A stretch of DNA of 64,000 nt, taken from the NCBI GenBank assembly GCA_964016885.1, contig OZ024743.1:172718226-172782225 (forward strand), in the 5' to 3' direction. Both the position numbers and the translations under genes were made by a program. Source of the DNA: Eledone cirrhosa. Lineage: Eukaryota; Mollusca; Cephalopoda; Octopoda; Eledonidae. Below the pieces are notes generated by a model, which ran no database searches, was not told where the DNA came from, and saw nothing but the letters and a program-made list of their open reading frames with translations. Below are positions 2,416 to 62,062 of the stretch, one piece after another (position 1 is the stretch's first letter; each line of letters begins with the position of its first letter).

Positions 2416-3390
2416 CAAAGAGAATTACATAATTACATAATGATGTGGAGCAGGAATTCTTGCTATGGAAAAATCAGGAAACTAATATTCTTTTTTAGAA
2501 TAGCCAGATAATTTCCAGCTACCATATATGGAAAATCTGTACACCTTCTAAAAATACCTAAGTAAACTATACTCATTGATGGTTTTCATAGCATTGTTCT
2601 AACTGACAACTATAATATGCATACTATATATTATATAGTAAGACCCATTCTACCGAGTACCTAAGGAAACTACAATCGCCACTCCTTTCTGCCATTTCCA
2701 TCAGTAATGTAAACAAACAGCCAGTGGTGCCACCAACCACATGCAGCCCACTGTGACACTTTACTATATGACTATAAAGATTCATATTACACACCCACTC
2801 TATAAGTCAACCCTTAGTTTTAGAGAGATTTTTTCAGGCATAAAACATTGACTTTAAACTCTGCAATTTATAGTAGATACAACTCTACTCTTATGTTTAC
2901 TGAAACATGGATTGCACACATCTTGGAAACCTGAGATGAAAATATTTTTGAATATGAATTGATATGTCAAATGATGTTCCTATTTCTAGTGCTCATTAGA
3001 TTTTGGCTAGGAATATTTTTATGTACTAAAAACCCCAGCTAAAGTGTTGAATATTATTTTCACAATGAGAGAGAGAGAGATGCTACAACTGATTCCTCTT
3101 ATATCTAGGTTTTTACCTTTCCAGAATTAATATTTGAAAACCCTCCGCTTCCTTTGATGCAACATCACACTTTTATGCACAAACATTCTTTGAGGGAGGA
3201 ACCATTAGTTGCCAACAAAGGTAATAGTTACTTGAACTTATTCTAACAACTATGCTTTTGAAATAGTCACCTACATAACAAAAACTATCAAAGTATTTAT
3301 AACAATATTTTTGGGCTCTGTACCTAACATAGAGCGCTCTTTTCCCTTTATCTATTCTACAGAAACTCTGGACACTATATATATTTATAG
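2416..3390. other. Unannotated AT-rich stretch
   Basis: No gene, RNA or shared repeat was recognised. It contains a short (GA)n run near 3067. Confidence 0.5.
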
Positions 3391-17066: not shown

Positions 17067-17512
17067 AATGAAAGGTACAGAAAACATTGTAGCAAAAAGC
17101 CAACAGTATTCCATAATATATAAATGACTATAGCGTCAAAATGTGAAAAATAGTTAACGTAAGATGTGGGAAAAATAATTCAAACTCATCTCAAAGAGAA
17201 TCAGGATATAGATTCATCCACAGAATTTAGTGAAATCCAGGGAAAAATCAATAGAGCCTTAACTCATGGTAAAATAAAGTTTAAAATACTCATCCTTCAA
17301 TTTGGAAAAACTTCAAATGCTCTGTATAGTCCTAAAGACTATTTCACGAAAACTTTCAGTGGAGATGGTCACGGTTGGAATTAGATCCTCAGCAGAGCTC
17401 AACTCGATACCCAAAATTCTCACAGATTAATATGCCAAAAAGGGAATTTAAAACAGGCTAGTTCACCATCATGCGTGATTATGAAAAATAAAACGCACAT
17501 GAGGAAAGACAG

Positions 17513-17516
<4 letters not shown>
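16663..17516. other. Unannotated stretch
   Basis: It has short open frames, (CT)n and (TA)n runs at 17035-17066, and no recognisable domain. Confidence 0.45.

Positions 17517-17552
<36 letters not shown>
17517..17552. repeat. (TA)n microsatellite
   Basis: About 17 TA units, immediately upstream of the hammerhead-bearing repeat. Confidence 0.95.
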
Positions 17553-17556
<4 letters not shown>

Positions 17557-17707
17557 AAGTAATTCCGTCGGAAAAGTCCAGGAAAAAAGAGTGCTCTATG
17601 TAGGTAACAGAGCTTAATAGTTATGTAATAAACAACATAAGGCAATTATTCCATTTACCAGTGGTTTCTTAAAAGCAAAAAATTTTGCTTTCAATCCTCA
17701 GAATGAA
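17553..17707 (-). repeat. Hammerhead-bearing dispersed repeat, copy A
   Basis: It matches 26045-26205. Shared blocks are AGAGTGCTCTATGTAGG, ACAGAGCTT, AACAACATAAG and TTTACCAGTGGTTTCTT. The copy ends at the ribozyme core. Beyond it lies a snap-back palindrome unrelated in sequence to that of copy B. Confidence 0.8.
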
Positions 17708-17712
17708 AAAAT
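17641..17712 (-). ncRNA. Hammerhead ribozyme, type I, copy A
   Basis: Read on the minus strand. Core CUGAGGA is at 17701-17695 (position 7 may be any base). Stem II runs 17694-17669 as a 12-bp hairpin including a G-U pair. GAAA is at 17668-17665. Stem III is ACC-ACU-GGU (17665-17657). The cleavage triplet is GUA, after 17656. Stem I pairs 17702-17712 with 17655-17645, ten of eleven positions. Copy B at 26.2 kb has the same stem III and GAAA but a quite different, still paired stem II. This strongly supports a real self-cleaving RNA in a retroelement repeat. Confidence 0.85.
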
Positions 17713-17891
17713 CCTGGTCTGTTTATTGAATTTGGATTTTAAAATCCAAATTCAATAAACAGACCAGGATTTTTTAATAGAAACAAATAAATACATTATA
17801 TGTGCGTGGTTTTGTATACCCATGGTAAGGTTTTGCGTATACTTGTGTATGTACGTATCTGTTTGCGTGTATGTATTTATTTGTTTCTATT
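17707..17891. repeat. Two nested palindromes
   Basis: 17707-17776 is a near-perfect inverted repeat with arms of about 33 bp around AATTTGGATTTTAAAATCC. Immediately outside it, ATAGAAACAAATAAATACAT (17777-17797) is the inverse of 17871-17890. Such stacked snap-backs suggest template switching during reverse transcription or replication. Confidence 0.85.
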
Positions 17892-17894
17892 ACT

Positions 17895-18460
17895 TCTGTA
17901 TTGTATTTATTTACTTTGTTCTTAACTCTGTAGCCGAGATTCATTTGGTCTCCTAGTTAGAATTTTAGTCTACGATTTCTGCTATACCATTTACGTGGTT
18001 TTGTCTTTTCATGCTATTGTTCTCCACGCTCCACATATGACTTATTATCTTCGTTTTTTCATTCATTGCCAGAGAATGTCTCTATGCACCACCTAAGAGA
18101 ACATTAGTCTACGACCTCTTTTATACCATAAACGTGGTTTTGTCTTTGCGCGTAATTGTTTTTCACCGTTCCTATTAATGACGTATTATTCGTTTTTTCC
18201 CGTTCTTTGCCAGCGAACGTTACCACGAACCAAAGTATCGTCTTCCTGTATTCCTCCAGTTGCAACGTTTTTTTAAATATCCAGTTCTGCATTTACAGAT
18301 TGACTTTGTTAGTTTCAGAAGATCCCGTTAAGGGTGAAAGCAGCGATTCTTTGCTTAAACTTTAATCTGTTATTTTAATAAATATTTGCTCTACGGTTCT
18401 TATATATTTGATATATATTTTCCTTATCGAGCCCTCTTTGGATTTTAGTCTTCAATTTTA
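17895..18460 (-). repeat. Dispersed repeat family C, longest copy
   Basis: It is non-coding and matches 39275-39720 and 62409-62770 along most of their length. Part of the repeat is tandemly duplicated inside it. Blocks with GTCTACGA ... TATACCAT ... ACGTGGTTTTGTCTTT occur near both 17970-18020 and 18110-18140. The plus strand at 18311-18361 has a hammerhead-like fold with CAGAAGA in place of CUGANGA. Confidence 0.75.
18311..18362 (+). ncRNA. Hammerhead-like motif with altered core
   Basis: Stem I pairs AGTTT (18311-18315) with AAACT (18357-18361). The core position reads CAGAAGA (18316-18322) instead of CUGANGA. Stem II is CCC/GGG, GAAA is at 18336-18339, and stem III pairs GCA with UGC around a 9-base loop. 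The next base would be the cleavage site. All four family C copies keep CAGAAGA. U4 is a conserved hammerhead base, so activity is doubtful. It may be a degenerate master copy or a different RNA element. Confidence 0.4.
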
Positions 18461-18489
18461 TTATTATTACTATATATATATATATATAT

Positions 18490-18670
18490 ATACATATACA
18501 ATATATTAACAAATAGAAATTATATTTATAAAACCATTTTATTATACATATTTCAAGGGCCACTTGATTATATGTATAATAAAATAAATATGGTTTTATA
18601 AATATAGTTTCCATATTGTATATTTACTCCACTAATCAGTTGAGTGCTTTATATCAGTTATAAAAATTAA
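18490..18670 (+). repeat. Dispersed repeat family D, snap-back copy
   Basis: It shares AAATATGGTTTTATAAATAT, AGTTTCCA and GTGCTTTATATCAGTTATAA with 22315-22495 (reverse) and 25920-26020. The left half is an inverted copy of the right half (AACCATTTTATTATACATAT against its complement), meeting at TTCAAGGGCCACTTGA. Only the 3' half of the ribozyme (GAAA onward, minus strand) survives. Confidence 0.75.
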
Positions 18671-18680
18671 ATATAACCTC

Positions 18681-18683
<3 letters not shown>

Positions 18684-18734
<51 letters not shown>
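18684..18734. repeat. (TA)n microsatellite
   Basis: About 25 TA units, abutting the 3' terminus of Helitron 2. Confidence 0.95.
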
Positions 18735-18735
<1 letters not shown>

Positions 18736-19048
18736 TAGCAGTTTAGGCCGGCGTTGCTTGGGTTTGCTCATTTCCTATGAAAAGTTACATACAGGTAAAC
18801 GTGGCTTGAAAGCGAATAAGCTTATCAATTAAGTGCATAAAGCAGTTGAACCAGTTATTAAAAGTTACGAGCCAATTAGCATTTTGGACAATCAATGATG
18901 GGTTAATAATCTTCCAATAGCGAATTTAGTAGACCAAAGTTGCAAGATGGTGGCCCTGATGCCGCTGGGTGTCAGATCTGTCCGCCATGGGTGACCCTAC
19001 CAGGAAATAGTTTTCCAGACAGCATAGCTCCAACACCTGCACCAACAT

Positions 19049-19620
19049 CTATAGCACCTCTTTGTAGACGATATTGCGTGTCATCGCTTGAGGAGTGTAA
19101 GCAAAAAATCCATTCCTGCTCCTTACGCGGAACAGGCAACATAAAGTTGGCCATGGGAGAAGCATGGCTCCCCCAAATGGATGCCCGCCACCGACAATGT
19201 TTGCCCTTGTGACTTGTTAATGGACATGGCAAAACATGGTCTCACCGCGAATTGGGATCGCCGGAAATCGAATGGGATATCTGACGCCGAGGGGAAAAGG
19301 TTCATCCTTGGAATGAAAACATTATCCCCTCTCCCGCACCCCGTTACAATGGTGGCCTCAATCAAGTGGGGCGTCAGTGACTTGACGACCATGCGAGTAC
19401 CGTTGCACTTCTTTGGTGGACGCAAGCTCCTTATTTGCATAATGGGACAGCCAACTCTAAGCTTAATGTGAGGTGGGAGCCCTGGGGGCTCAAGGGAATT
19501 TAATAACTCAACCGGATAATTAACGATATTGTCGGGGTCTGACGCCTGGTCGATAGATTTGAAGATGTGCTCTTTACCGGGAATCTTCTCAATCAGCTGC
19601 TCGTTAATAAAATTAACCAT
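19049..19620 (-). pseudogene. Helitron 2 helicase C-terminus
   Basis: A 165-residue frame (19620-19123) contains LEPPGLPPHIKLRVGCPIM, KCNGTRMVVKSL, DNVFIPRMNLFPSA and FAMSINKSQGQTLSVAGIHL, then SHGQLYVACS. A one-base change of frame continues as VRSRNGFFAYTPQAMTRNIV, then YKEVL and a natural stop at 19049. The last block is the usual Helitron helicase C-terminal end. It is separated from the main frame by a break around 19620-19700. Confidence 0.85.
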
Positions 19621-19699
19621 GGTATTTTTCGGAGCAAGGATGGCTCTTTCACTGAGCCAATCGAGGTTTTTAAAGTTAGATGAAGGTCAGAAGGGCTGC

Positions 19700-21178
19700 T
19701 CACAGGGAATCGATTGCTATATTGCCCTTGTAGTCGGCAGGGACCTTGCCCTCACCAAGTGCTAAAATGTTCTGAGCAAATGCTGCAGACATGTTGTCAC
19801 CATGCGAATGAGCATGCATATTTGTGCTCAGGTACAAACTCTTCACCTGGAGCCACAACATGGACGACTTAAGGCAGGCACGCACTTCATCAGCTCTTGT
19901 CCCTTTGGGGATGAGAGGCAGCATTTGCCGAAAATCCCCTGATAGCAGAAGGGTTACACCACCCATAGGAGCCGTATAATCCCTAATGTCTTTCAGGGTT
20001 CTGTCCAATGCCTCAAGGGCACCTTTGTGTGCCATTATGCACTCATCCCAAACAATGAGGCAACATTTTTTGAGAACCAGAGCTTCGTGTGAACTCTTGC
20101 TGATATTGCATGTTGGTGTCTCAGTTTTTACTAAATCCAAGAGGAGTTTAAAGGTTGAATGTGCTGTCCTGCCTCCCGGCAGCAAAGTAGCAGCGATCCC
20201 GGACGATGCACTGGCCAACGCAATTTTTTTCTCCTGACGAATCTTAGCGAGAATCAATTTCGTTACAGAAGATTTTCTGGTATCCCCAGGAGCATCGAGA
20301 AAGTAAATACCCCCAGTCTGATTTTGAACTGCGTCAATGATAGTTAAATAGGCCAACCTTTGATCCAACAGAAGTTTGGGCTCATTTTCCTCTAAGTATT
20401 GGGAAAGAGATTCGATGTCATATGCTGTTTCCCGCAACAAATCCGGGGCCAACGTGTTAGCTTCCTCTCTGACGGTTGACAGCAAGCCATATGTCGCCAA
20501 CTCACTCCCACCCATGTCGAGGAGGGCGTCCTCGATATCAATGAGTGCCCTGTTGTAGATAATGTCACTGTAATCAACTTCCACTGAAGGATACGGCAGA
20601 TGAACCAGGCGTAGGAAGTCCTCAGACATGAAGTCTCTGTACTTGACCCATAAAGATTTGGGATCACCCAATTCACACTTTTGAAGCAAAATGGCAAAGA
20701 GTTCCCGTAGACCTTTAGGTGATTTCAACAAAGCACCCTCTGCTAAAGTGGATTCCCATTGCGAATCATCTTCCAAAAGACCACGCTTAAAGCAGGCTTC
20801 CCGGTACGTATCACATATTTCTCCATCAACAGTTTTGAGGTCCTGAAAACTTTGTGGGCCTACAACTTCATGCAGAAGAAGGCGGAGATGAAAGCATTCA
20901 TGCTGACTTGGGGGCACAGTGTAAACCCTTCCAAGACAGCTGTCAAATTTTACACCAGGATGTCTTTCAACAGCCTGACCTGACTTTCTTCGCACCCAAG
21001 TGTTTTTTGACCATATAAAGCAGGATGAAACCTGGGGGTACACAATTGTTTGCGCAAATGTATCGAACTGGTAAAGTTTGAAGAAATCCGTCAGAGTGAT
21101 CTCTTTCGGATCGGCGGCCAACTTGGCAGCGGTTTGGTCCGTAAAGTAAACCCTTTGCCCATTTTCCAAATGTACCAC
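19700..21178 (-). pseudogene. Helitron 2 Pif1-like helicase, main open frame (492 codons)
   Basis: This is the longest intact helicase frame in the window. Upstream blocks are FDTFAQTIVYPQV and RVYTVPPSQHECFHLRLLLHEVVGP. Walker A, near residue 300, reads APGDTRKSS where APGGTGKT(F) is usual. The lysine remains but two invariant glycines are replaced. Walker B is CCLIVWDECIMAHK, followed by LEALDRTLKDIRD, LLLSGDFRQMLPLI and STNMHA. The frame breaks at 19700 before the C-terminal part. Family role: superfamily 1 helicase of the Rep/Hel transposase. The altered P-loop predicts no ATPase activity. Confidence 0.85.
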
Positions 21179-21339
21179 AAGCTGTACGATGGCGGGGTGC
21201 TGTTGGTGTAGGGGTAAACCAAAAAAGCTTCATTGCTATTGATGTACCGCCCTGCCAGGTATTCTGTGACCTCGTCCCTGCTATTTTCAGCTTTCAAGCG
21301 AACATTGCGGCATCAGAGCCCTTATTTACATATTTGCAT

Positions 21340-21960
21340 ATGTATTTTATCGACTTGACGGAGTTGCAAAACTCAACGTTGATGTGGGAGTTGAACATCT
21401 TCAAGAGAAGCGGGAAGTAAGGGACCACCCATCTATTGTCGACTTGAGCCCCCTTTACTGTTGTGGTGAAGCCACCATTCTCGAGCCGTCTCCGCCTGTA
21501 CAGGGGGTACCCTTCGCCACCAGTCTGAGTCTAGTCAACAAATTTTTTGGGGTATCCCTTACTGCACGACCCCTCCTTTCAGACACGTGTGATGCTCATT
21601 AGGACCCGACGCACACGGACCATGAATCATGTTAGCTTTGATGATGTCATGTAATTCCTGGTCAGTTGCTGGGTTAGGGATTTCAGCCGAAATGAAGCTG
21701 TCTATGGCATTTGAATTGATTTTATCAGCTCACCAAATCAAAATGTGAGCATGTGGCAGCCCTCGTTTTTGCCATTCGACGGTGAACATGTCACATTTTA
21801 CAGCCCCAAATACCTGACCCTTTTTGATTAAAGCCATGAGTTTAGCCAGTTTCAATCTGAATACTCTGGCAATGAGGTTGTGTCTGTTCGAATAATTTTG
21901 CCCAGAAAAAATTCACGGGTTACATTCTGATTCATATGTCTATAGCATTAATCTGTTATA
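21340..21960 (-). pseudogene. Helitron 2 Rep, C-terminal part
   Basis: Broken minus-strand frames read LIARVFRLKLAKLMALIKKG (near 21880-21830), then QKRGLPHAHILIW (21771-21733). The latter is the HUH metal-binding motif of rolling-circle Rep. NPATDQELHDIIKANMIHGPC follows near 21680-21620. Upstream Rep sequence, including the FIT..NP.W block, is absent. Several stops and frame changes follow. Confidence 0.8.
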
Positions 21961-22314
21961 TGAAGTGTTATTTTGCGGGTTATTTGCAATAAGCCGATTG
22001 AAAATGCCCCAGATAAGCCGTATGTCAATACAGAACGCTCCACTGTAGTGTTGTCATATAGGGAGTGAAGAGCGACAGAGAGAGTAAAGCAGTTAAATTA
22101 TAGAGAGAGGGAATGATCATGATCGATTTTTGCCCTTATTGTTGATGGATTTGAAATTTGTTTGCCTCATGACCTTTTCCTGACCAAAAGCAATAATTGT
22201 TCCGATTTTGAATAGAACCCGTTGGAAATTGTGGACATGAATCCGTTACAAACCTTAACACACACATCCTCAGATTTATATATATATATATATGTAAAGT
22301 TATATTTAAAATTG

Positions 22315-22495
22315 TTGGGTTACAACTAGTAAATATTTATAACTGATATAAAAGCACTCGACAAATATTTGAAGTATATTTACAATATTAAATAAATGGA
22401 AAACTATATTTATAAAACCATATTTATTTCATTATATATATTTCGGGGATATCATATTAACAATATGCTATGCCTTCATCAGACAAAATACAATA
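22315..22495 (-). repeat. Dispersed repeat family D with hammerhead ribozyme
   Basis: It matches 25920-26020 (plus) and 18490-18670. The minus strand runs ribozyme, then AAATATGGTTTTATAAATAT, then GTGCTTTTATATCAGTTATA. No coding sequence was found. The small size and a ribozyme at one end fit a non-autonomous retroelement. Confidence 0.75.
22421..22493 (-). ncRNA. Hammerhead ribozyme, type I, copy D1
   Basis: On the minus strand the core CUGAUGA is at 22482-22476. Stem II (22475-22445) is an imperfect 11-bp hairpin. GAAA is at 22444-22441. Stem III is a 2-bp stem with loop AUAU (22441-22434). The cleavage triplet is AUA, after 22433. Stem I pairs 22483-22490 with 22432-22425 over eight consecutive positions, two of them G-U. 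Copy D2 differs at three of these positions and still pairs. Confidence 0.8.
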
Positions 22496-22839
22496 TAAAC
22501 AGTTTTATAGATAAATATATTCGACATACCGTAATAAACATCAACTTCATTTGAAGAGGTTTACGCTAGCAGTGAAAATACAGAGAGAAAGAAAGAGAGA
22601 AAGAAAAGAGGGAAAAAAGAAAGAAAGACAAAACGAAGAAAAGGAAGAAAAAGAAAAAGAAGAAATGCATGGAACAAAATAGAGAGATGGAAAAATAGAT
22701 AAAGCGAAGAGCTTCATGTAAAGAGACAGAAAGAGATATATATATATAGAGAGAGAGGAAATAGAGATAGATACATATATATATAGAGAGAAAATTAGGT
22801 AGTGGGAGGTCATTTTGAGTAAGTGTATCAATGATACAT

Positions 22840-22874
<35 letters not shown>

Positions 22875-22980
22875 GCTCAAGTATTAATGTAAGGGAGAGA
22901 GATATAGAGATATAGAGAGAGAATATGGCAATATATTGTCAATATATGAATATGGCAATATATTGTCAATTAACTTTGAA
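22496..22980. repeat. Purine-rich low-complexity region
   Basis: GA-rich runs occupy 22575-22800. (TTTA)n is at 22838-22874 and another GA run at 22890-22922. No gene was found. Confidence 0.8.
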
Positions 22981-22984
22981 GGTT

Positions 22985-23068
22985 TATTTTTATTTTCATT
23001 TTTATTTTTATTTTTATTTTTATTTTTATTTTTATTTTTATTTTTATTTTTATTTTTATTCTTTTAGT
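22985..23068. repeat. (TATTTT)n microsatellite
   Basis: About 13 six-base units, mostly perfect. Confidence 0.95.
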
Positions 23069-23689
23069 ATTGTAGTATTCTATAATATTTTTATTTTTTA
23101 TTTTATTTTTAATATTTTTATATGTAAATTTTTAATACGTAATATTTTTTAATACGTAGTATTTTTAATATGCAATATTTTTATTATATAATATTCTTTC
23201 GTAATATTTTTTTAGTTTTCTATTCTATATTTTTATATATTTTTACTTATTATTATTATTATTGTTATCTTTGTTTATAATATAATATATATTTTCGATT
23301 AGTATATTGAAATCTGCTCTCTATTTCTGCTTGATAGATAATCTTGTAGAGTAATCGCAAGAATAATAATACGCTCAAATTTTTATACCACATTGAGAAT
23401 GTTTTCCGGTAACCTAGAGTTTGCGGAGTGAATCAGTTGGATTCACATTGATGTTTGTAGCTGTCACATAAACATATGAATTTTTTAAAACTAAACATAA
23501 GATAATGAATTTTCACACATTGTGAATACTTGTTTCATTCAGGAATACTGATATTTACAATATAGTGTAAGTTTTATAAATACTAATACATTAAAACATA
23601 GGGTTTTCTACGCCTCGAATATGTCTGGCTATTTTTTTTTTTTTTTTTTTTTTTCTCTCTCTATATCTCTCTATATCTCTCTCTCTCTA
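23069..23689. other. AT-rich, no gene seen
   Basis: T-rich and A-rich sequence including a T-run at 23631-23654 and a (CT)n run. No recognisable feature. Confidence 0.5.
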
Positions 23690-23690
23690 T

Positions 23691-23776
<86 letters not shown>
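23690..23776. repeat. Long (TA)n microsatellite
   Basis: About 40 TA units with one interruption. The plus and minus frames through it are meaningless Tyr-Ile repeats. Confidence 0.95.
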
Positions 23777-23782
<6 letters not shown>

Positions 23783-24110
23783 TATATGTGGCGAAGGGTA
23801 ACCTGGAAAGTAGAGCATGCAGTCCAATCGCCATGGCAGAAAGTGGGGCTGTGCAGACCCCCCCCCCCAATTCTCTCTAAATGACCCTCCCATTCAAAGC
23901 CGGATGTAGTGTTATCTAGTGTGTGTCTACCTTTAGTAATCAGTCAAAATTCTGCTTGCCCCTGTGTGTGTGTGTGTGCATGTGTGTTATCTTTTTTTGT
24001 GTCTATACGTTTTAGTAAGCAGCCAAAATGCTTGCTTCAACCGATGCAATTGATCAACTCGAGATTCTATAACGCATGCACGGACCCTTCGCCCCTGATA
24101 TATATATATA
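23777..24110. other. Unannotated stretch between microsatellites
   Basis: It includes a C-run at 23861-23869 and a (GT)n run at 23963-23980. No gene was found. Confidence 0.5.
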
Positions 24111-24111
24111 T

Positions 24112-24170
<59 letters not shown>

Positions 24171-24187
24171 AAGATATATATATATCC
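24112..24187. repeat. (TA)n microsatellite with TATCCAAG end
   Basis: The array ends in a 20-base sequence (TATCCAAG plus TA units) that recurs at 25825-25847, on the other side of the adjacent LINE fragment. Confidence 0.85.
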
Positions 24188-24224
24188 AACACAGTTTTTA
24201 TATAATAATAATGTTTGCTTTACA

Positions 24225-25825
24225 TCATAGAGCAAAGGCTCTCCACTCTCCAGGCCCAGAAACAAGGAAGGTGTCCACTATTTCTATAGAACCATCTGGG
24301 CAATGGAATGAGCTAGTATTCTGTGGGCATTTGCTGCTACTTATTGCACCAGAGCACCGGCCACATATAAAATCTATATTCTTAGTTAGCTTACCTGTGA
24401 TCCCACTACATCTTTTATGCACCCATACTTTGCATTTGGGACATAAAATGGAGTTTCTGCCTACTCCTTTCCTACACACTGAGCATGGTCATTTCCCAGA
24501 TGGGACCAGTGCCCTATTCTCCTTCCTACATATTAGGACTTTAGTCTTAGACAAGTTAACTTTAAGGCCTTTTGATTCTAGGCCATGCTTCCATGTTTGG
24601 AATTTCTTCTCTAGTTCAGCCATTGATTCGGCTATGAGCGTTAGATCATCTGCGTATAGAAGTTCCCATGGGCAGCCGGTCTTGAACTCCTCCGTTATAG
24701 CTTGGAAGGCGATAATAAATAGGAGGGGGCTAAACTCTTCACTATATTCGTTGTTAATTCTAACCTTGCTGACTGTTTCTTTATACATGGCTTGTATAGC
24801 TCTCACAAGCCATTCATCTACACCTAGTTTTCTAAGAGCCCACCAGATAATGGAGCGGGGGACTGTCAAAGGCTTTCTCCAGGTCTACAAAAGCTAAGTA
24901 TAGGGGTTTACTTTTAGCTAGGTACTTCTCCTGTAGTTGTCGTACAATGAAAAGAGCGTCTGTGGTACTTTTACTTGACACAAACCCGAACTGCATTTCA
25001 TCTAGATTAATTCGCTCTCTGATTAGTTGCGCTATTACTTTTTCTGTGACCTCCATGACCTGGTCAATTAATTTAATGCCTCTATAGTTTCCCCTATCTA
25101 GGGCGTCTCCTTTACCCTTGTAACAGTTGATGATGCTGCTACGCCAGTCCTTTGGTATGACCCCATTCTGTATAACTTGGTTTACTATCCCGGTGACCAT
25201 AGTGTGTCCCACCATTCCAGATGCTTTCAGCATTTCAGCAACTATTTTCGAAGGCCCAGCCGCCTTGCCCGTCTTCATATCTTTGATTGCCTTACTTATT
25301 ATACTACCTTCAACTTGAACTGCTGGTCCCTCTATTGGATTGATGTGGGGGAGGCTGTCTTTCTCCCATTTATTCTCCTCATTTAGTAGCCTTTCGTAGT
25401 GACACTTCCAAGCTACCTTCTTATCAGCGTCAGTGATGGCCAGTACGCCATCATCATTACGAACACACTTCTCCCCGACAATATCACGGTTCTCCTTGAC
25501 ACATTGTCTAGCAATCCTGAACACCTCACGTTTTTGGTCCTCGCGTTGTAGAACATGCTTTAACTTTCTTTCCTCTGCTTCTTTTTTTACAAAGTACACT
25601 TGTCTCCTAGCTTCCCTCCTGGCTACTTGATAGTCTTCTCTACTTCCCCAATCCCGCCATACTTTCCAAGCCTGCTTTTTGGCCTTGATCGACTACTCCA
25701 CCTTACTGTTCCACCACCAAGTTACTCTCCTCCTGCCTATAGGTCTGCTCCAGCCACAGATTTCATCTGTCGTCTTCAGCAGGTTAGCTTTCAGGAATCC
25801 CACTGTTCCTCTATATTGTACGACT
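24225..25825 (-). mobile_element. RTE-type LINE fragment, truncated at both ends
   Basis: It is closely related to the copy at 58.9-62.0 kb. Minus-strand frames are 25599-24832 (linker and first half of reverse transcriptase: GKAAGPSKIVAEML, YRGIKL, FGFVSSKST), 24869-24489 (LGVDEWLVRAIQ, LLYADDLTLIAES) and 24479-24225 (PHD-like finger CRKGVG..CPKCKVWVHKRC). A 2-base deletion shifts frame at FDR/VP. A 36-base in-frame deletion removes the GVHQGS motif. TGG before the finger is TGA. The C-terminal RNA-binding tail and 3' UTR are absent, which is odd for a LINE. Confidence 0.88.
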
Positions 25826-25919
25826 ATCCAAGATATATATATATATCTATATATCCAAGAAAAACTTGAACTGTTAAGGTATCTTTTCTTGGTTATGTCA
25901 AAATTCATAAAACAAACTT

Positions 25920-26020
25920 TGTATTTTATCTGATGAAAGCGTACCAAAGTTTTGGTACCCTTGAAATATATATAATAGAATAAATATGGTTTTATAAATA
26001 TAGTTTCCATTTATTAAATA
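25920..26020 (+). repeat. Dispersed repeat family D, plus-strand copy
   Basis: Ribozyme followed by AATAAATATGGTTTTATAAA and TAGTTTCCATTTATTAAATA, cut off by a (TA)n run at 26028. Confidence 0.75.
25921..25984 (+). ncRNA. Hammerhead ribozyme, type I, copy D2
   Basis: Core CUGAUGA is at 25930-25936. Stem II (25937-25962) pairs 10 of 11 positions around loop AGUU. GAAA is at 25963-25966. Stem III is 2 bp with loop AUAU. The cleavage triplet is AUA, after 25974. Stem I pairs 25922-25929 with 25975-25982 over eight positions. Compared with D1, stem I positions 2, 3 and 4 change but stay paired, and stem II is a different helix of similar length. Confidence 0.82.
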
Positions 26021-26044
26021 TCATTGTATATATATATATATATA

Positions 26045-26330
26045 TATAAATGAAGTATTTCTGTAGGAAAGGTAAAGGAAAAGAGAGTGCTCTATGTAGG
26101 CTACAGAGCTTTTTAGTTATGTTATAAACAACATAAGATAATTATTTCATTTACCAGTGGTTTCTTGAGGAGAGATATTTATATCTGTCTTCAGTCATCA
26201 GAAAGAATAGTAAGGAAATTCCTTACTATTCTTTCTGATGACTGAAGACAGCTTCTCGCAACCAATTACTTACTTCCCTGCTAATGAAATAATTATCTTA
26301 TGTTGTTTATTACATAACTATATATATATA
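26045..26330 (-). repeat. Fold-back copy of hammerhead-bearing repeat (copy B)
   Basis: 26045-26205 matches the repeat at 17.6 kb. The right half, 26219-26325, is an inverted copy. CTGTCTTCAGTCATCAGAAA (26185-26204) and AACAACATAAGATAATTATT (26128-26147) recur inverted at 26232-26252 and 26288-26308. The right arm carries one unit of the 39-bp minisatellite (GCTTCTCGCAACCAATTACT near 26252) where the left arm has the ribozyme's 3' part. Confidence 0.8.
26144..26209 (-). ncRNA. Hammerhead ribozyme, type I, copy B
   Basis: On the minus strand the core CUGAUGA is at 26201-26195. Stem II (26194-26165) pairs 11 of 14 positions. GAAA is at 26164-26161. Stem III is ACC-ACU-GGU, identical to copy A. 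The cleavage triplet is GUA, after 26152. Stem I pairs UU, C and UU of 26202-26207 with 26151-26146, with one U-U mismatch. Stem II differs almost completely from copy A but remains a helix. Confidence 0.82.
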
Positions 26331-26412
26331 TATATATCATCATCATGATATATATATATATATATTGGAAACGTAAACAACAACAAGAAGGAGTACAGTT
26401 ACGAAAGGTGTT

Positions 26413-26459
<47 letters not shown>

Positions 26460-26499
26460 AACACCTTTTCCAATATATCATGATGATGATGATATATAA

Positions 26500-26570
<71 letters not shown>

Positions 26571-26660
26571 AATATATAATATATATATATATATATATAT
26601 TCGAAAAGTAAACAACAAGAAGGAGTACAGTTACGAAAGGTGTTAGGTATTAGGTTCACA
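26320..26660. repeat. (TA)n arrays interspersed with a 46-bp repeat
   Basis: TA arrays at 26320-26365, 26417-26458 and 26486-26600 alternate with two copies (26371-26416 and 26603-26649) of a unit containing GAAGGAGTACAGTTACGAAA and GGTGTTAGGTAT. A shorter relative occurs at 26458-26475. Confidence 0.85.
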
Positions 26661-27330
26661 CTTGAGAGTGGGGGCTGGGGGACGTTTCGGGCATAAGCTC
26701 TTCATCAGGAGAAAGGTGGGAAGGAGAGGAGTTCTGAGAGGGTGTGAAGGGGGAGTGGTGGAAAACATTAAAATAACAGGAAATAAATTAAAATGAAGTG
26801 AAAAAAATAAAAATAAAACGAGTGGGACAATAAGTTGAAAACAAGTGGTGAAAGGGTGTGAGGCGTGTAGGTGGTGGTGGATGGAAGGGGAGGGAGAGGG
26901 GAGGGAGAGGGGAGAAGGAAATTGGGGGTCCGAGTGGGGAGGGCGGAAGGTGATGTGTGTAGCTGTACGTGTGTGTGTATGCGTGGATGTGAGTGTGAGA
27001 GTTTGGGGGAGAACTGGGTTCCATGCTCAGGTATTAGGAAAACCAGTGTGTACATGGGGTGGGGTGTAAGTCTGTGTGTGTGTGAATGGAGAGGGGTTGG
27101 AAGGTGTGGTGGAAAGGGAGCATGTGGAGTCCGGAAGAAGAGTGGGTGTATGTGAGGATATGGACGTGTGTGTGTTTTTGTGTTCCTGAATGTTTTTTCG
27201 GTGAGTGTGTGGACAGATGGGTATAATCTCGTAGATATTCTGAGAGTGTGACCAAAGGTGTCAAGTTGGGGACTTACTGTATATGTATATGTGTGTGCAT
27301 GCAGATGTGAGTGTGTATCTGGATCTTTCT
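26661..27330. other. G-rich unannotated stretch
   Basis: It is strongly strand-asymmetric and G-rich, with GGGGAGGGAGAGG-like and GTGTGT runs. On the minus strand near 26712-26685, CTGATGAAGAGC...GCCCGAAACG resembles a hammerhead core, but no stem I is evident. No gene was recognised. Confidence 0.5.
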
Positions 27331-27555
27331 TTATAACAACAACAAAGACCCTCTAGATAGCCAGTGTTATTACAACAGCTATCCCCCTATGTATCTAGCT
27401 ATCTTCAGACAAAAACATCCCTTGCTCATATATATATATATAATAGTAGAACACTGGAGGGTTATATCTGTAGTAGTAGTAGAACACTCAGTCCATGGGA
27501 CGAGTTTGGTAGAAATAGTTCCACAACAGTTAGTACACAAGGACTCATGCCTCCC

Positions 27556-27984
27556 TGCTAACAGTGGCTTCTCGCAACCAATTACTTACTTCAATGCTAA
27601 CAGTGGCTTCTCGCAACCAATTACTTACTTCACTGCTAACAGTGGCTTCTCGCAACCAATTACTTACTTCACTGCTAACAGTGGCTTCTCGCAACCAATT
27701 ACTTACTTCAATGCTAACAGTGGCTTCTCGCAACCAATTACTTACTTCACTGCTAACAGTGGCTTCTCGCAACCAATTACTTACTTCACTGCGAACAGTG
27801 GCTTCTCGCAACCAATTACTTACTTCACTGCTAACAGTGGCTTCTCGCAACCAATTACTTACTTCACTGCGAACAGTGGCTTCTCGCAACCAATTACTTA
27901 CTTCACTGCTAACAGTGGCTTCTCGCAACCAATTACTTACTTCAATGCTAACAGTGGCTTCTCGCAACCAATTACTTACTTCAC
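27556..27984. repeat. 39-bp minisatellite, 11 units
   Basis: Eleven tandem 39-base units start at 27556. Each reads TGCTAACAGTGGCTTCTCGC and then AACCAATTACTTACTTCAM. Only two positions vary (final A/C and TGCTAA/TGCGAA). Because 39 is divisible by three and no unit contains a stop, one plus frame runs 27311-28231 (306 codons) with a 13-residue repeat ANSGFSQPITYFT. Two other frames are also open across the array. There is no evidence of translation. Confidence 0.97.
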
Positions 27985-28700
27985 TGCTAACACCAACAGC
28001 AATAAGAAAAGAAATTGTGTTAATAGAAAAACTATCTGGTTCTCTTCCCCCTTCTCACTCAACGTTAAAACTAATGTAAGAAAAAAAATCTTAGCACACT
28101 TAGATAGACACAAATACTGCTCCATCTTTAACAGACACAGGGTGAAACTAGGATACTCCTGTGCTAAGAATATGAAGGCCCACATCACCAACAGCCTTAA
28201 GAGCAGCACCCCACCAGGATGCTGTTGCTGAAAGACTGAAGCTTGTCCCCTTCAACAACAATGCAACACATCCACTGTAATATACGAAGCTGTGGTCATT
28301 TCCAACCAACCAAATCAACAACAAGAAGTTAAATCCTATGTAGGTATGGTGGAGGGCTGGTTTAAGGAACGCTTCCTGAACCATCAGTCGATATTTAGAT
28401 ACCCGGACAAATAATCGTCCATGAAACTCATGAGCCATGTATGGTCCCTCAAAGACTCAGGCATAGACTACTCCATCCAATGGAAAGCTATCACTAAGTT
28501 AAAGCCATAAGCAAAGGGAAATCCATTTTGTGGACCCGTGCATTGAATCAACATCCTGAGAAGATTATGCAATAACAATTGCCTAAATTCAAAGAATGAA
28601 CTTTTTTTATGTTGTCCGCACATCTGGATACACCTTTTGAATAATTACAAAGCTCCAGATGGAATAACATCAACATTCTATTATTCTGAACAACTCGAAT
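27985..28700 (+). pseudogene. Penelope-like element remnant (linker and GIY-YIG region)
   Basis: Downstream of the minisatellite the frame reads IWFSSPFSLNVKTNVRKKIL, then IFNRHRVKLGYSCAKNMK, the block that follows the reverse transcriptase in Penelope-like proteins. After a stop at 28230 the sequence continues with CPLQQQC, VIYEAVV and SYVGMVEGWFKERFLNH, which matches the PLE GIY-YIG endonuclease layout (VIY...YVG...R..NH). WSLKDSGIDYSIQWK follows near 28445-28490. Several stops make it a pseudogene. No reverse transcriptase core is visible; the minisatellite occupies the position where it would be expected. Confidence 0.75.
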
Positions 28701-28964: not shown

Positions 28965-31512
28965 AGTAAGAATTCCTGAAAGATAACCTACCGAATCTGA
29001 CAAACGAAATCTGTGGTTGGAGCAAACCTTTTGGAAGAAGGAGAGTTACTTGGTGGTGGAACAGTAGAGTGGGGGGAGACACTTAAGGCCAAAAGACGTG
29101 CTTGGAAAGAATGGCGGGATGGGGGAAGTAGAGAACACTACCAGGTAGCTAGAAGAGAAACTAGGCAACAAGTGTACTTTGCAAAAATGGAAAGAGAAGA
29201 TAAACAATTTAAGCATGTTCTGCAATGCAAGGACCACAGGTGTGAGGTGTTCAGGATTGCAAGGCAATGTGTCTGGAAAAATTTTAATATTGTTATGGAG
29301 AAGTGTGTCCACAATGATAATGGAGTACTTGCCCTCACTGATGCTGAAAAGAAGATAGCATGGAAGTGCCACTATGAAAGACTGCTAATTGAGGAGAATG
29401 AATGGGGTGAAGATAGTTTGCCACAAGTTGACCCAACAGAGGGACCAGCTGTGCAAGTTAGAAGTAGTATAGTAAATAAGGCAATCAAAGATAAGAAGAC
29501 AGGGAAGGCAGCTGGACCTTCGGGAATAGTTGCTGAGATGCTGAAAACATCTGGGATGGTAGGAAACAACATAGTCACATGTATTGTGAACCAAGTAATA
29601 CAAAATGAAGTCATAATCAATGACTGGCGTAGCAGCATCATAATCAACTGCTACAAGGGTAAAGGAGATGTTGTAGACAGAAAAAATTATAGAGGCATTA
29701 AGTTGGTTGACCAAGTCATGAAGGTCACAGAAATAATTATTGCACAGCTGATTAGGGACCGAATTAAACTTGACGAAATGCAATTTAGATTTGTACCAGG
29801 TAAAAGCACCATGGATGCTCTCTTCCTCGTAAGGCAACTACATAAGAAGTACTTAGCTAAAAGTAAACCCCTCTACTTAGCTTTGTTGACTTGGAGAAAG
29901 CCTTTTACAGAGTCTCCTGCTCCATTATCTGGTGGGCTCTTAGAAAACTAGGAGTAGATGAGTGGCTTGTGAAAGCTGTACAAGCCATGTATAGAGGAAC
30001 AGTCAGCAAGGTTAGAATTAACAACGACTATAGTGAAGAATTCAGTGTACAAGTAGGTGTTCACCAAGGTTATGTCCTTAACCCCCTCCTGTTTATTATT
30101 GCCCTATAGGCTATAACAGAGGAGTTTAAGACTGGCTGCCCATGGGAACTTCTGTATGCAGATGATCTAACTCTGATAGATGAAAGTATGGCAGATTTAG
30201 AGAAGAGATTCCAAATCTGGAAGCATAGCCTAGAATCAAATGGTCTTAAAGTTAACTTGTCAAAGACTAACGTCCTAGTATGTAGAAAGGAAAATAGGAC
30301 CCAGATTCCCTCTGGGAAATGGCCTTGCTCAGTGTGCAGGAAAGGAGGAGGCAGAAATTCCATTCTATGTCCCAAATGCAAGCTATGGGTACATAAAAGA
30401 TGCTCTGGGATCACAGGCAGGCTATCAAAGAATGTAGGTTTTATATGCAGCCAATGCACAGGTGCAGTAAGTAGCAAGAGCCCACAGGATACTAGCTCCT
30501 TCAAAAGCCCAGATGGTTTTGTAAAAATAGTTGACATTACCTGGGTGATGAAATCAGCAGTGGAGGAGGGTTTTGAGGGTGTTCTTAAAGTACAGTAGCC
30601 AGAGTAAGAATGGAATTGAGAAAGTATAGAGAGCTACCTTCACTGTTTGCTACAAAATCTTGTTCCTTTAAAAGGAAGGGCAGATTGTACGATGCATTTA
30701 TACAAACAGCAGTGTTAGATAGCAGTGAGACCTGGGCACTGTGTGCAGAGGACCTGCAAAGATTGGAAAGAAATGAAGCATGCATGCTTTGATGGATATG
30801 TAAGAGTAATATACATGAACGGCAAAACATAATGAACTGAGAGAAATTAGCCATAAGAGGGATCAGATACAGTATGCTAGAGAGGCGAATGCGCTGGTAT
30901 GGTCATGTGATGCGTATGAAGGACGACAGTTGTATCAAAAGGTGCAGGGTGATCAAAATTGATGGAAGTTGTGAAGTAGGAAGACCCAGGAAGAAATGGG
31001 GTGAGGTGATAAAAGCTGACCTTGCACAATTGCACCTCTCAAAGGCGACACAGGATCAAGATCTTTGGCATTATGCAGTAATACAGAAAAGAAACGTTCC
31101 CATGCACATGGACTCAAAAACACATCTTGTAGGCACTTCTTAACCACTATACCCCTTCCATACATGACCAACCCACCCATCCACTTCTGTCTACACCACA
31201 ATTACATAATGTTATGTTGGTATCACAACAAAAAAGTATTCAGCCCACAATGTGAAGTGGTTGCGTAGGTCTCATGACAACAGCACCCCGCCCACACAGT
31301 AAAGTAGTCGTGTAGGTGTCATGACAAAAAGCACCCAGCACACAGTGTAAATGTGGTTGGCATTAGGAAGAGCATCCAGCCATAGAAACCTAGCCAGAAA
31401 CAGTTCTATATGAACAAGAAATGGTCACCTGACCCGACTTGCCTCTAATGGGACATCTCGTCTAACCCATATTAGCATGGAAAATGAACATTAAATGATG
31501 ATGATATATATA
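28965..31512 (+). mobile_element. RTE-type LINE, 5'-truncated copy with complete 3' end
   Basis: Frames in order are 29013-29951 (linker AKRRAWKEWRDGGSREHYQV, then GKAAGPSGIVAEML, YRGIKLVDQVMKV, FVPGKSTMD), 29891-30109 (LGVDEWLVKAVQAMYRG, HQGYVLNPLLF), YADDLTLI in another frame at about 30157, 30188-30598 (KENRTQIPSGKWPCSVCRKG then CPKCKLWVHKRCSGI, a PHD-like finger) and 30874-31143 (RRMRWYGHVMRMKDDSC, GRPRKKWGEVIKADL). The 3' UTR has GTTGGCATTAGGAAGAGCAT and ends AAATGATGATGATA. The endonuclease is absent. At least four frame breaks; inactive. Confidence 0.9.
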
Positions 31513-33854: not shown

Positions 33855-34456
33855 TACAAAATATTAAAACAATCAAATCTTAGTTTAATACATTTAATTG
33901 TTGACAATTGTTTCTTCCAGACGAACGTCTGGAATCATCAGAGCATAGAGAATGTTTAAACAGGTAATTAAAATCTTAGTCTTCACAACATTTAGAGGGA
34001 CACATAACTATTGACAAGATACAATAAAAAAAAGATGTAAGATAAGATAGATAAAAGATATCATAGCATTGGAAATCGGGTAATGTTAAGGGTATATAAT
34101 GCAAAAGTTAATAAAATTAATAAAGGCATGCATGAGGTAAAGGTTATATAATAAATGAAACAAGCATATTTCATGTAGAATGTAAAAACATGTTAAAAGT
34201 GTTAGAAATGTTTAAAATTTTTTAAATGGCATGCAATGTGGTAGAGAGATGTGTGGTGATAAAATGGATAGATGTTGTGTAAAGTATAATGCAAAAAACG
34301 TGATTCAATTAGATAGGTAATTTTCATTCAAGAATGTTTATATTAGAGTTTGTATATAGATGTATATGTTGGGTATAACACAAATGTATTAACCATGGAA
34401 TTTTCTTAGTTTTAGATGTAATGTTTTTGAGATGTGTATAGTTTAAAAATATAGTT

Positions 34457-40465: not shown

Positions 40466-40825
40466 CTAGGATCTCCCAGTGTAACCTATATTGGTGTGAT
40501 TGTCTTTTAGACTCCAGATATAAGCTGAAAGTGACGTCACATTCCTTCTTAAAGGGTTAAGAAAAGAATGGGTGTGCATGTAAAGACGCTGCTTGAATCT
40601 ATTGCCGGTTAACCCTATGTAGGCTCTACTAGACATGGGTGTTTCGACCTTACATTTGTAGAATATGTTACTGGAGAGGCATTTCCCGGATAGAGGGCAA
40701 TCAACCCGATTCCTACAATTACAGTTAGTACTAGCTACAGGGTTGCACGTATTCCTACGGCTAGGTAATTTAGTTAAATTTGAAGCAGTGATATTATGTG
40801 CAAATTTAGGAGTTGTGATATATAT
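40466..40825 (-). pseudogene. Penelope-like element GIY-YIG region, second copy
   Basis: A 129-codon minus-strand frame contains CNCRNRVDCPLSGKCLSSNI, FYKCKVETP and AYIGLTGNRFKQRLYMHTHS, followed by SAYIWSLKDNHTNIGYT. The cysteine cluster followed by IFYK...YIGLT...FKQR..MH is the PLE GIY-YIG endonuclease, which makes the cut used to prime integration. It is isolated from any reverse transcriptase and fades into non-coding sequence at 40470. Confidence 0.75.
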
Positions 40826-41336
40826 ATATATACTCATATATACACATGCATACATGTATATACATATTTACACACTCTTATGAGTTCTTCCGCCCTTTGT
40901 CAGGTTTTGTTTTTTGTCCTGCTGGGTGTTCGTGAACCGATTTGTTTATGATGAAGCATTTGTGAAGCGAGGTTCCACTGTATATGTAATTATTACATGT
41001 ATGTATATAGTATGTATATGTATATATAAGCTGTGAAAGCTACAGAAATATTCCATATATTCTTCCAGAGCAATCTCTATTTAAAAATTTACATTTTACG
41101 CTTACTTGTCCGCCATTGCAAAAGGCCATAAATTCAAATTTTGAAAAGAGAGGAAAAGAGACAAGTGAACTATGAACTTGTACATCTCAATGCCCCCCCC
41201 CCCCCCCCCCCGCCACCACAATAACAATAATGTCTACACTCGTTCCCCATCATCACCACATAACTCATTACTCTATCTAAGCTGGCTGACCTGTTGACTG
41301 TTGACATACTGCTAACTCCTTTGATGTATGTATGTG

Positions 41337-43500: not shown

Positions 43501-44049
43501 AATGAGACATACAGGAAGGTGTGGAGAAGAAAGGTCTGGAAGCTAAAAGACCTTTCACTAAAATACAAATTTAGGAAACCCCTTCAAGATGTATATGACG
43601 AAAAAGAAGACGATTTAGAGACGTATGACATAAATAACTGGAATTTCTTACGTGACAATTTGTTGCAGGCTACTGATGAAACTTGTGGCTGGAGCAGAGC
43701 TCCAACCAGACAGAGAGCGACCTGGTGGTGGAACAGCACAGTAGATAAGGCCATTAGAGACAAAAGACTAGCATGGAAGGCTTGGAAAAAGGGTGGGAGT
43801 AGGGAAGAATATACAGCCGCTAAGAGAGAAGCTAGACGGCAGGGAGGCTGAGAGTAGGAGGTTTGCCAATGTTCTGCGACGGGAAGATCAGAGGCGTGCG
43901 GTGTTCCACATTGCAAGGCAAATCAGGATGTTGTTGTCAATGCAAATCAGGGTGTTGTTGGAGATAAATGTATCCGGAATGATGCCGGTGTACTTAGTGT
44001 CACGAATGATCAGAAAAAGGAGGCCTGGAAATGTCATTATGAGAGACTG

Positions 44050-45015
44050 ATGAATGTGGAGAATGAATGGTTGAGAGAGAAATTACCCTTAGTAGATCCG
44101 ACAGAGGGACCAGATATTGAGATTGACGAATATAGGGTCCAAGAGGCGATTAAGGAAATGAAAAATGGTAAGGCTGCTGGACCATCGGGAATAGTTGCTG
44201 AGATGCTGAAGGCATCAGGGGACATAGGCACTAAACTGGTTGCACGCATCATCAATCAGGCTATATATGCTGGTGTCATACCCAAAGACTGGTGCAGCAG
44301 TATTCTCATAAATTGCTACAAAGGTAAAGGGGATGCTCTGGAGAGGAGAAATTATAGGGGTATAAAACTGATGGATCAGGTTATGAAAGTGGCAGAAAGG
44401 ATATTAGCACAACTAATTAGAGAAAGGGTCAAACTAGATGAGATGCAGTTTGGTTTTGTGCCTGGAAAGAGTACAACGGATGCCCGCTTCTTGGTGAGAC
44501 AATTGCAAGAGAGGTTCTTAGAGAAAAATAAGCCACTATACATAGCCTTTGTTGACCTAGAGAAGGCCTTTGATAGGGTACCCCGATCTGTCATCTGGTG
44601 GTCCCTAAGGAAACTAGGTGTTGAGGAATGGCTTCTGAGGACAGTGCAAACTTTGTACAGAGGTACTCTCAGTAAAGTCAGGGTAGGAATGGAGTTTAGT
44701 GAGGAATTCCAGATACAAGTAGGAGTACATCAAGGTTCGCTCCTCAGCCCGCTCTTGTTCATTATAGTCCTCCAAGCCATAACAGAGGAGTTTAAGACTG
44801 GCTGTCCATGGGAACTTCTCTATGCTGACGATCTGGTTCTTATAGCAGAATCAGTAGAGGAGCTACAGAATAAATTCTGGCTATGGAAACAGCAGTTGGA
44901 AGCAAGAGGACTGGGAGTGAACCTAGCTAAGACAAAAGTGTTGATGAGTAGAAAAGAGGACAAAACTCTGATTCTGTCAGGCCATGTTCGATATGCAGAA
45001 AAGGAACTGGCATAA
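44050..45015 (+). pseudogene. RTE reverse transcriptase, 321-codon open frame
   Basis: Intact core: GKAAGPSGIVAEML near residue 43, NYRGIKLMDQVMKV near 100, FGFVPGKSTTD near 137, AFVDLEKAFDRVP at 166-178 (motif A), VGVHQGSLLSPLLF near 226, LLYADDLVLIAES near 256 (catalytic YADD). The frame is lost just after LSG, where seven bases including the Lys-Trp codons seen in other copies are missing. The downstream finger (CRKGTG, CTQCRSWVHKRC) is therefore out of frame. An upstream stop separates it from the linker. Confidence 0.9.
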
Positions 45016-45164
45016 ATTCTATAAAATGCACACAATGCAGATCCTGGGTACACAAGAGATGTAACGGGATAGCAGGCAAACTAACAGGTAGGGAGAAATA
45101 TGTATGCAGTAGATGTACAGGGAAATTAGACAGTAGAAGTCACATTGATAGACACATTTTTCAA

Positions 45165-45791
45165 ATGCAGGAGGGTGCTATAGAAGTGGTGGATAGCTTC
45201 CGGTACCTAGGAGATCAGATTAGCATGGGAGGAGGGTGTTCCGAGGCCATAGTATCTAGAATAAGGACGGGTTGGAAGAAGTTTAGGGAGCTGCTTCCTC
45301 TGCTGACGAAGAAGTGTTTCTCCCTGCGTACAAAAGACCGGTTATATGATGCTTGTGTGAGGAGCACGATGCTGCATGGTAGTGAGACATGGGCAGTAAC
45401 TACAGAGGATATGCAACGGCTGGAGAGAAATGAGGCAAGCATGCTCCGTTGGATGTGCAGTGTGAATGTGCGTGAATGACCCAGCATGAATGTGTTGAGA
45501 GAGAAACTGTGTCTGAGAGGGATAGAATGTAGTGTACGGGAGAGGAGACTGAGGTGGTATGGACATGTGATGCGCATGGAGGATGACCGATGGGTGAAGA
45601 AGTGCCAGGAAATGCCAGTTGAAGGAAGACGTGGTAGAGGTAGACCACGAAAAACATGGGCAGAGGTGGTGAGAACAGACCTCAGATCGTTGAAGCTCAC
45701 GGTGGAGATGACGAAGGACCGTGACGAGTGGAGAGATGCTGTGCTGAATAAGACCCGTCCCACCCTTGCGAGCAGAGAAGAGCGGATGTAA
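45165..45791 (+). pseudogene. RTE ORF2 C-terminal tail
   Basis: Two frames separated by one TGA codon at 45477 (45165-45479 and 45486-45791). The first has VVDSFRYLGDQISMGGGCSE, GWKKFRELLPLLTKKCFSL, LYDACVRSTMLHGSETWAV. The second has RRLRWYGHVMRMEDDRWVKK and GRGRPRKTWAEVVRTDLRSL, then the 3' terminal SREERM. Resembles the template-binding region after the reverse transcriptase. It matches the 3.4 kb fragment. Confidence 0.85.
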
Positions 45792-60227: not shown

Positions 60228-60236
60228 TGAGCATGG

Positions 60237-61067: not shown

Positions 61068-61084
61068 ATCTTTGATTGCCTTAC

Positions 61085-61975: not shown

Positions 61976-62003
61976 ATATATATATACATACATACACATA
62001 CAT

Positions 62004-62037
<34 letters not shown>

Positions 62038-62062
62038 CTGTGTGTATATATATATATATATA
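61976..62062. repeat. (TA)n/(TACA)n microsatellite
   Basis: Mixed TA and ATACATAC array marking the 5' junction of the LINE. Confidence 0.95.

Follow-up and report, generated by a model that had tools for sequence, protein, structure and literature searches.

Type I hammerhead folds in the 3' region of an abundant, very probably Penelope-like, retrotransposon family of Eledone cirrhosa

The window analysed here, 64,000 nucleotides of the octopod Eledone cirrhosa (assembly GCA_964016885.1, contig OZ024743.1, positions 172,718,226 to 172,782,225), holds two sites on its minus strand, copy 1 near 17.7 kb and copy 2 near 26.2 kb, at which a hammerhead motif can be read (Table 1). Both sites are very probably the 3' ends of one abundant family of Penelope-like retrotransposons that carries a type I hammerhead in its 3' region. 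The first-pass annotation of the window had reported that the two copies share GAAA, a stem III of ACC-ACU-GGU and a GUA triplet, that their cores CUGAGGA and CUGAUGA fit CUGANGA, and that cleavage would be expected after 17656 and 26152. The letters are as claimed at both sites, and the layout of the motif gives the same two positions. The 17 letters common to both copies, GAAACCACTGGTAAATG, occur exactly twice in the window, and with three mismatches allowed only one of 100 shuffles of the window holds two. In the 2.98 Gb genome this 17-mer was counted 2816 + 2776 times (5,592), compared with 0 + 0 for the reversed control. A general hammerhead descriptor (core, stems I, II and III, triplet) matches copy 1 only within the window and found nothing in 40 shuffled windows. 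On the genome count, the shuffles and the descriptor controls, a chance match was rejected.

Copy 1 looks intact and copy 2 looks partly decayed. The hammerhead fold of copy 1 was calculated at -11.9 kcal/mol, against a minimum free energy (MFE) of -12.4 kcal/mol; for copy 2 the values are -3.6 and -6.3 kcal/mol, a gap of 2.7 kcal/mol. A family model gives 99.2 bits to copy 1 and 73.1 bits to copy 2, both of which are among its training sequences. Copy 2 taken alone is weak evidence because it is partly decayed.

The fold was followed through copies that were all read from one contig (C1; loci numbered L011, L057 and so on), plus the two in the window. The letters of CTGANGA, which lies upstream of GAAA, were not used in picking copies, and this motif is present with at most one mismatch in 74 of 85 distinct right halves (exactly in 61); several of the remaining 11 resemble arms truncated inside the motif. 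Among the 74 copies, C3, U4, G5, A6, G8 and A9 are kept while N7 is free and takes all four bases (T 35, G 17, C 15, A 7), as in the core of type I hammerheads. Position 17 is A in 71/74, in keeping with the rule that it is not G, a result that is partly circular by selection. The three helices, with stem I open and stems II and III capped, are again those of a type I hammerhead. Over 58 copies that have an exact core and A17, the median gap between the hammerhead fold and the MFE is 0.5 kcal/mol (worst 25.9). Three loci (L029:2783, L050:5452 and L061:2127-2202) form a subfamily with N7 = A and G17, which is expected to be non-cleaving.

The first-pass annotation had also described stem II as changed to an unrelated helix that still pairs. 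Stem II does differ, and at least three self-pairing sequence forms were found (UUGAAAGC..GCUUUUAA, CUGAAGACAG..CUGUCUUCAA and CCGAAGUCAGACG..CGUCUGUCUUCGU), the first two of which have their first pairs in common. The stems of the two window copies, however, are not wholly unrelated, as both read UGAA after the first base, and that of copy 2 is decayed. The paired fraction of stem II is 0.847, compared with a mean of 0.787 and a maximum of 0.816 in 2000 partner swaps, and that of stem I is 0.875, compared with 0.856 and 0.873. Stem III varies too little for a pairing test and hence gives no covariation evidence. When the named structure is applied to 46 aligned copies (leaving out L021 minus, one of 47 core-bearing copies, and seven copies with no core), 93.2% of cells are paired, compared with 36-56% when the partners are slid. 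A descriptor scan additionally found a locus (L056:905-1000, plus strand) in which stems I and II are both changed and the same GAAACC-N3-GGTA is followed by a recognisable tail. Several stem II sequences, a changed stem I, the kept CTGANGA and thousands of copies bear out the earlier proposal of an RNA fold within a dispersed repeat. As predicted from the letters, the motif is a type I hammerhead fold with an open stem I, a long and variable stem II, a 3-bp stem III closed by a triloop, and a GUA triplet.

The coding element was recognised at loci where the ribozyme motif and a long reading frame lie together. L057 holds a 583-aa stop-to-stop frame with YRDD, CxC..CPL..C and YVG..R..H blocks that align to relatives, and we take these blocks to be reverse transcriptase (RT) and GIY-YIG-type motifs. 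At E up to 0.001 it has 784 relatives; of the 120 listed, many carry the label PF26215, which we take to be a domain of Penelope-like elements, and one comes from the octopod Argonauta hians. L057 and L066 share a collinear stretch of 3.0 kb that starts within the open reading frame (ORF) and runs on through the ribozyme motif to the end, as two overlapping blocks that are 83% and 79% identical; in both loci the ribozyme motif lies about 2.0 kb downstream of the RT + GIY-YIG frame on the same strand. RT and GIY-YIG pieces are found upstream of the ribozyme motif in L053 as well. L029 was considered as a full-length element and rejected, as other ORF fragments lie between its ribozyme motifs. 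This collinearity from the RT + GIY-YIG frame to the ribozyme motif indicates that the host element is Penelope-like, the link that had been proposed from the window. Consistent with this, RT and GIY-YIG share one frame (by motifs and alignment), the ribozyme motif is joined to the coding element, and the family shows inverted end copies, a tail and an AT-rich target.

The same loci bear on another origin that the first-pass annotation had raised, a small non-autonomous retrozyme, that is, a hammerhead-bearing tandem repeat spread as circular RNA. The majority of the copies read are indeed short and non-coding, and most classical animal type I hammerheads lie in retrozymes, according to the accessible part of PMC7229834. 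However, L057 and L066 run collinearly from the RT + GIY-YIG frame into the ribozyme motif, and the copies read are head-to-head pairs or tailed single ends with no tandem monomers among them, so the arrangement that marks a retrozyme is lacking among the copies read. A retrozyme origin is thus improbable. The short copies may still represent a non-autonomous derivative that relies on the element's protein for its movement.

Several results weigh against a working hammerhead in a Penelope-like element. In copy 2 the 3' strand of stem II is decayed, stem I is mismatched and the strict general descriptor finds no match. Because the right-half 17-mer served to pick most copies, the conservation seen in GAAA, stem III and the triplet is in part circular. 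Stem II forms were assigned by a crude rule and the few form C copies are worn; when strands are exchanged between forms, a B 5' strand with a C 3' strand still pairs at 8.2/10, whereas C with itself reaches only 6.5. Two of five covariation measures on the 46-copy alignment do not rise above shuffles (both-sides-changed pairs, 5 vs 4.2; further pair types, 14 vs 14.2), and RNAalifold recovers stem II from that alignment and pairs the stem III/I region otherwise. Three of the 74 copies have G17, a base expected to prevent cleavage. The pair favoured for hammerhead activity at 10.1/11.1 is G-C, which is a preference and not strictly defining; the 74 copies have U-A 34, C-A 25, A-A 7, G-U 4, C-U 3 and U-U 1, a standard pair in 38/74 and G-C in none. 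The annotation had held that a hammerhead covariance-model scan with no hit above threshold would refute the fold and, taken literally, that is what was found. Rfam 15, run without a positive control, reported no hammerhead in the window at the gathering threshold and, at E up to 10, none in 17500-28100, in short pieces round copy 1 and the 33.9 kb motif described below, in 14 relatives or in the L056 form. On the protein side, Pfam gave no family in the L057 frame at E up to 0.01, neither RT nor GIY-YIG, and a family profile of this frame found no relative among solved structures. We nevertheless accept the hammerhead fold, because the evidence of the family model, and of helices that change from one genome copy to another, outweighs the silence of Rfam. 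That silence, the lack of G-C at 10.1/11.1 and the copies with G17 argue for a putative ribozyme that may be weak, protein-assisted or lost in some copies.

Two types of end were found in the family. The short end stops at ACATAACTA, often followed by a TA repeat (53 counted). The long end (38 counted) has an extra tail of about 65 nt with a GCTCT..AGAGC hairpin and stops at TTACTTCA, followed by TA or CA repeats; of the 31 long ends with a measured tail, 23 have a length of 66 as counted from the shared end (seven more were unmeasured). By a strict cut, flanks are TA-rich in 28/53 short and 13/31 long ends, and many other long flanks are CA followed by TA repeats. Scoring covered 27 head-to-head pairs with ends up to 1.6 kb apart. 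The automatic procedure called 25 of these mixed and L070 long-long, and left L080 unscored. By eye, the left end of L070 is short, with a second small insertion past its TA repeat, and L080 has the start of a tail at its right end, so that both are mixed. All 27 pairs (25 automatic, two by eye) therefore have one short and one long end, an outcome with a chance of 7e-8 if 27 short and 27 long labels are dealt at random. In the window, the copy 2 insertion is a mixed pair as well. Copy 1 has its palindrome but no end motif on its other side, and is therefore not a complete pair. The unit that fills the copy 2 junction belongs to a 39-bp minisatellite at 27555-27992 with about 11 copies. Among 20 further loci (L050-L069), most of them chosen for lack of a near partner and some including unread stretches, 14 have a single end within about 7 kb, five are mixed pairs (L050, L053, L055, L060 and L065) and L061 is ambiguous.

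The arms of an insertion also tend to differ in length. Of 24 insertions, 15 have arms whose lengths differ by at least 6 nt, and in the other nine the two arms agree to within 2 nt. The 24 come from 29 rows, after dropping a spurious second row for L011, L062, the window row, L079 and L017 (a duplicate of L016). L020, L021 and L077 have unaligned stretches of 264, 40 and 388 nt, and the arm lengths given for them are therefore minimum values; leaving out L020 and L077 gives 13/22 with unequal arms. Paired inverted ends, often within TA repeats, would also be expected of a miniature inverted-repeat transposable element or another terminal-inverted-repeat DNA transposon whose ends mimic a ribozyme by chance. 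In such a transposon the 27/27 unlike ends, and arms that often stop at different points, are not expected, nor is the retention of CTGANGA and of both variable stems, I and II, despite changes on both strands, nor are ends that adjoin the RT/endonuclease frame. On the unlike ends, the unequal arms and the RT/endonuclease linkage, we rejected a terminal-inverted-repeat transposon, and its probability is very small. A single self-copying cDNA as the only route to the palindromes was likewise rejected, since it predicts like ends and equal arms and we see 27/27 unlike and 15/24 unequal.

Where the copies stop relative to the predicted cleavage position bears on whether the ribozyme acts at all. 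In the sampled copies the 3' end lies about 40 or about 100 nt beyond this position, which indicates that their templates were uncut at the 3' ribozyme; both search patterns require letters beyond the position, and copies made from cut RNA would be missed. Arms that start at the cleavage position are not enriched (2/85), and nothing therefore suggests that cDNAs mostly terminate where an RNA was cut. Both results would fit the view that the fold is a true hammerhead that is a ribozyme no longer and serves the element as a protein-binding or RT-start structure, as would the failure to find G-C at 10.1/11.1; in an anole element, insertion in vitro was unaffected by ribozyme mutants (PMC11167929). 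Yet keeping C3, U4, G5, A6, G8 and A9 with N7 free is what selection for cleavage would leave, at positions that played no part in picking the copies. We regard a purely structural role as unlikely, though less so than a retrozyme origin.

The mixed ends and unequal arms suggest that each insertion joins two separately primed cDNAs. In the mechanism that we propose, the ribozyme would cut multimeric, upstream-unit or read-through transcripts to leave a 5' end at AAUG, and cleavage would probably be slow or helped by the element's protein. That protein would cut both strands within a TA/CA repeat. Two reverse transcriptions per copy, one on each side of the break, would then be primed separately at two fixed RNA sites about 63 nt apart, usually one per side, and the 3' ends of the cDNAs would be joined head to head through a short self-complementary sequence or filler. 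The hammerhead would lie just upstream of both sites, uncut in the templates seen. We put the chances of this two-site scheme at about even.

Three other places in the window are related to this family or resemble it. The motif at 33955-33888 is a sister form with a GUC triplet and a different stem II, and scores 27.0 bits (E 0.0019) with the family model, which was built from the 46 copies and did not include this site in training; for scale, the next match of the model is the inverted arm of copy 2, at 25.0 bits. A degenerate sister form was seen at L044:436-503 (20.9 bits, E 0.057), with a GIY-YIG match about 1 kb downstream of it. On the plus strand at 3313-3340 there is a tail-like GGCTCTGTACCTAACATAGAGC with a TA repeat some distance beyond, which may be the terminus of an old, related element that lacks the ribozyme. 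The GIY-YIG fragment at 40466-40867 belongs to another Penelope-like family, with 76,298 genome candidates at first look, of which 150 were scored and match. Twenty loci of that family (L030-L049), spanning 1.5 kb on each side, gave no close copy of the ribozyme motif and four weak model matches only; a ribozyme 2 kb away would escape. Finally, reading frames at 24489-25692, 29001-30598, 43858-45479 and 59448-62080, several of them in pieces, presumably represent reverse transcriptases of the long interspersed nuclear element type.

Table 1. Positions in the 64,000-nt window of the hammerhead sites, the insertions that carry them and related features
Feature	Position	Strand	Basis
Copy 1 hammerhead fold, CTGAGGA / UUGAAAGCAAAA stem II / GAAACC-ACU-GGUA	17640..17715	-	sequence, family model, folding energy
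Copy 1 parts	CTGAGGA 17701-17695; stem II 17694-17669; GAAACC-ACT-GGTA 17668-17656	-	sequence
Copy 1 predicted cleavage site, after A17 at 17656	17655..17656	-	sequence only
Copy 2 hammerhead fold, CTGATGA / CUGAAGACAGAUAU stem II form, partly decayed	26136..26215	-	sequence, family model, folding energy
Copy 2 parts	CTGATGA 26201-26195; stem II 26194-26165; GAAACC-ACT-GGTA 26164-26152	-	sequence
Copy 2 predicted cleavage site, after A17 at 26152	26151..26152	-	sequence alone
Insertion 1, 5'-truncated end of a very probably Penelope-like element with hammerhead, long tail and inverted partial arm	17555..17775	-	sequence
Insertion 1 long end, whose tail of about 66 nt includes the hairpin GCTCT..AGAGC (by eye) and ends TTACTTCA, then TA repeat	17555..17620	-	
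Insertion 1 perfect palindrome of 35 + 35 bp, where two element arms meet head to head	17706..17775	.	
Insertion 2, head-to-head pair, long end on the 26051 side, short end on the 26320 side, TA repeats flanking both	26051..26320	-	
Insertion 2 head-to-head junction, 32 + 32 bp inverted arms with one central base	26186..26250	.	by eye
Insertion 2 junction filler, 33/34 bases equal to the unit of the 39-bp minisatellite at 27555-27992	26251..26284	+	
Insertion 2 short arm, start about 3 nt or less from the predicted cleavage position	26283..26320	+	
Third hammerhead-like motif, sister form, CTGATGA / UUCCAGACG..CGUCUGGAA / GAAACAAUUGUC, one C-A break in stem I	33888..33955	-	family model
GIY-YIG fragment of another Penelope-like element family	40466..40867	-	frame and protein comparison

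Hammerheads in Penelope-like elements have been described before (PMC7761336 and PMC6155905, both accessible in part; Cervera and de la Pena 2014 and Lunse et al. 2017 are cited in the former). As far as these excerpts go, the minimal type I hammerheads of such elements resemble ours in lying in terminal repeats and in having thousands of dispersed copies. They usually have no helix III, whereas the Eledone family keeps a 3-bp stem III with a triloop and, unlike them, has a long stem II in several sequences; Rfam does not report this hammerhead. In the accessible part of PMC7229834, animal non-LTR (long terminal repeat) retrozymes also have a type I hammerhead and a high copy number and are known from a mollusc, but are tandem non-coding units with no RT, unlike the arrangement of the copies read here. 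The giant squid genome has 235 hammerhead type 1 loci, with no link to an element stated in the available excerpt (PMC6962438). Two papers on octopus and cephalopod repeats mention Penelope elements and, in the portions accessible, no ribozyme (PMC13282606; PMC8967140).

Two systems come closer in their ends. In PAc, a Poseidon element of Anolis, a hammerhead likewise precedes two RT start sites by which the tail is defined, and the target is AT-rich; its ribozyme did not cut unless protein was added (PMC11167929). The PAc ribozyme overlaps the start of the ORF, whereas the Eledone family has stops after the cleavage position; in Eledone the two ends are about 63 nt apart. According to the accessible part of PMC3846280, Penelope elements of Adineta vaga share head-to-head inverted pseudo-long terminal repeats (pLTRs), palindromes at the junction and an optional tail on one pLTR, and their insertions show short target duplications. 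In comparison with A. vaga, the copy number in Eledone allows the pattern of one long and one short end to be counted, at 27/27 of the pairs scored. What is new here with respect to these two studies is the count and the regularity of the mixed ends. A literature search, with subscription journals mostly outside its coverage, found no account of this ribozyme-bearing family or of the rule for its ends.

The family thus offers a predicted hammerhead fold that has persisted in a very common retrotransposon although the sequences of its helices changed several times. The standard RNA library is silent on all forms tried, and censuses based on Rfam may therefore undercount such ribozymes. The thousands of copies are a record, within the genome, of Penelope-like insertion. 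In this record the mixed ends, the unequal arms and the filler junction favour two separately primed cDNAs, and a model of priming at two sites becomes testable. If that model is true, a priming complex of two parts would have left its footprint in the long and short tails.

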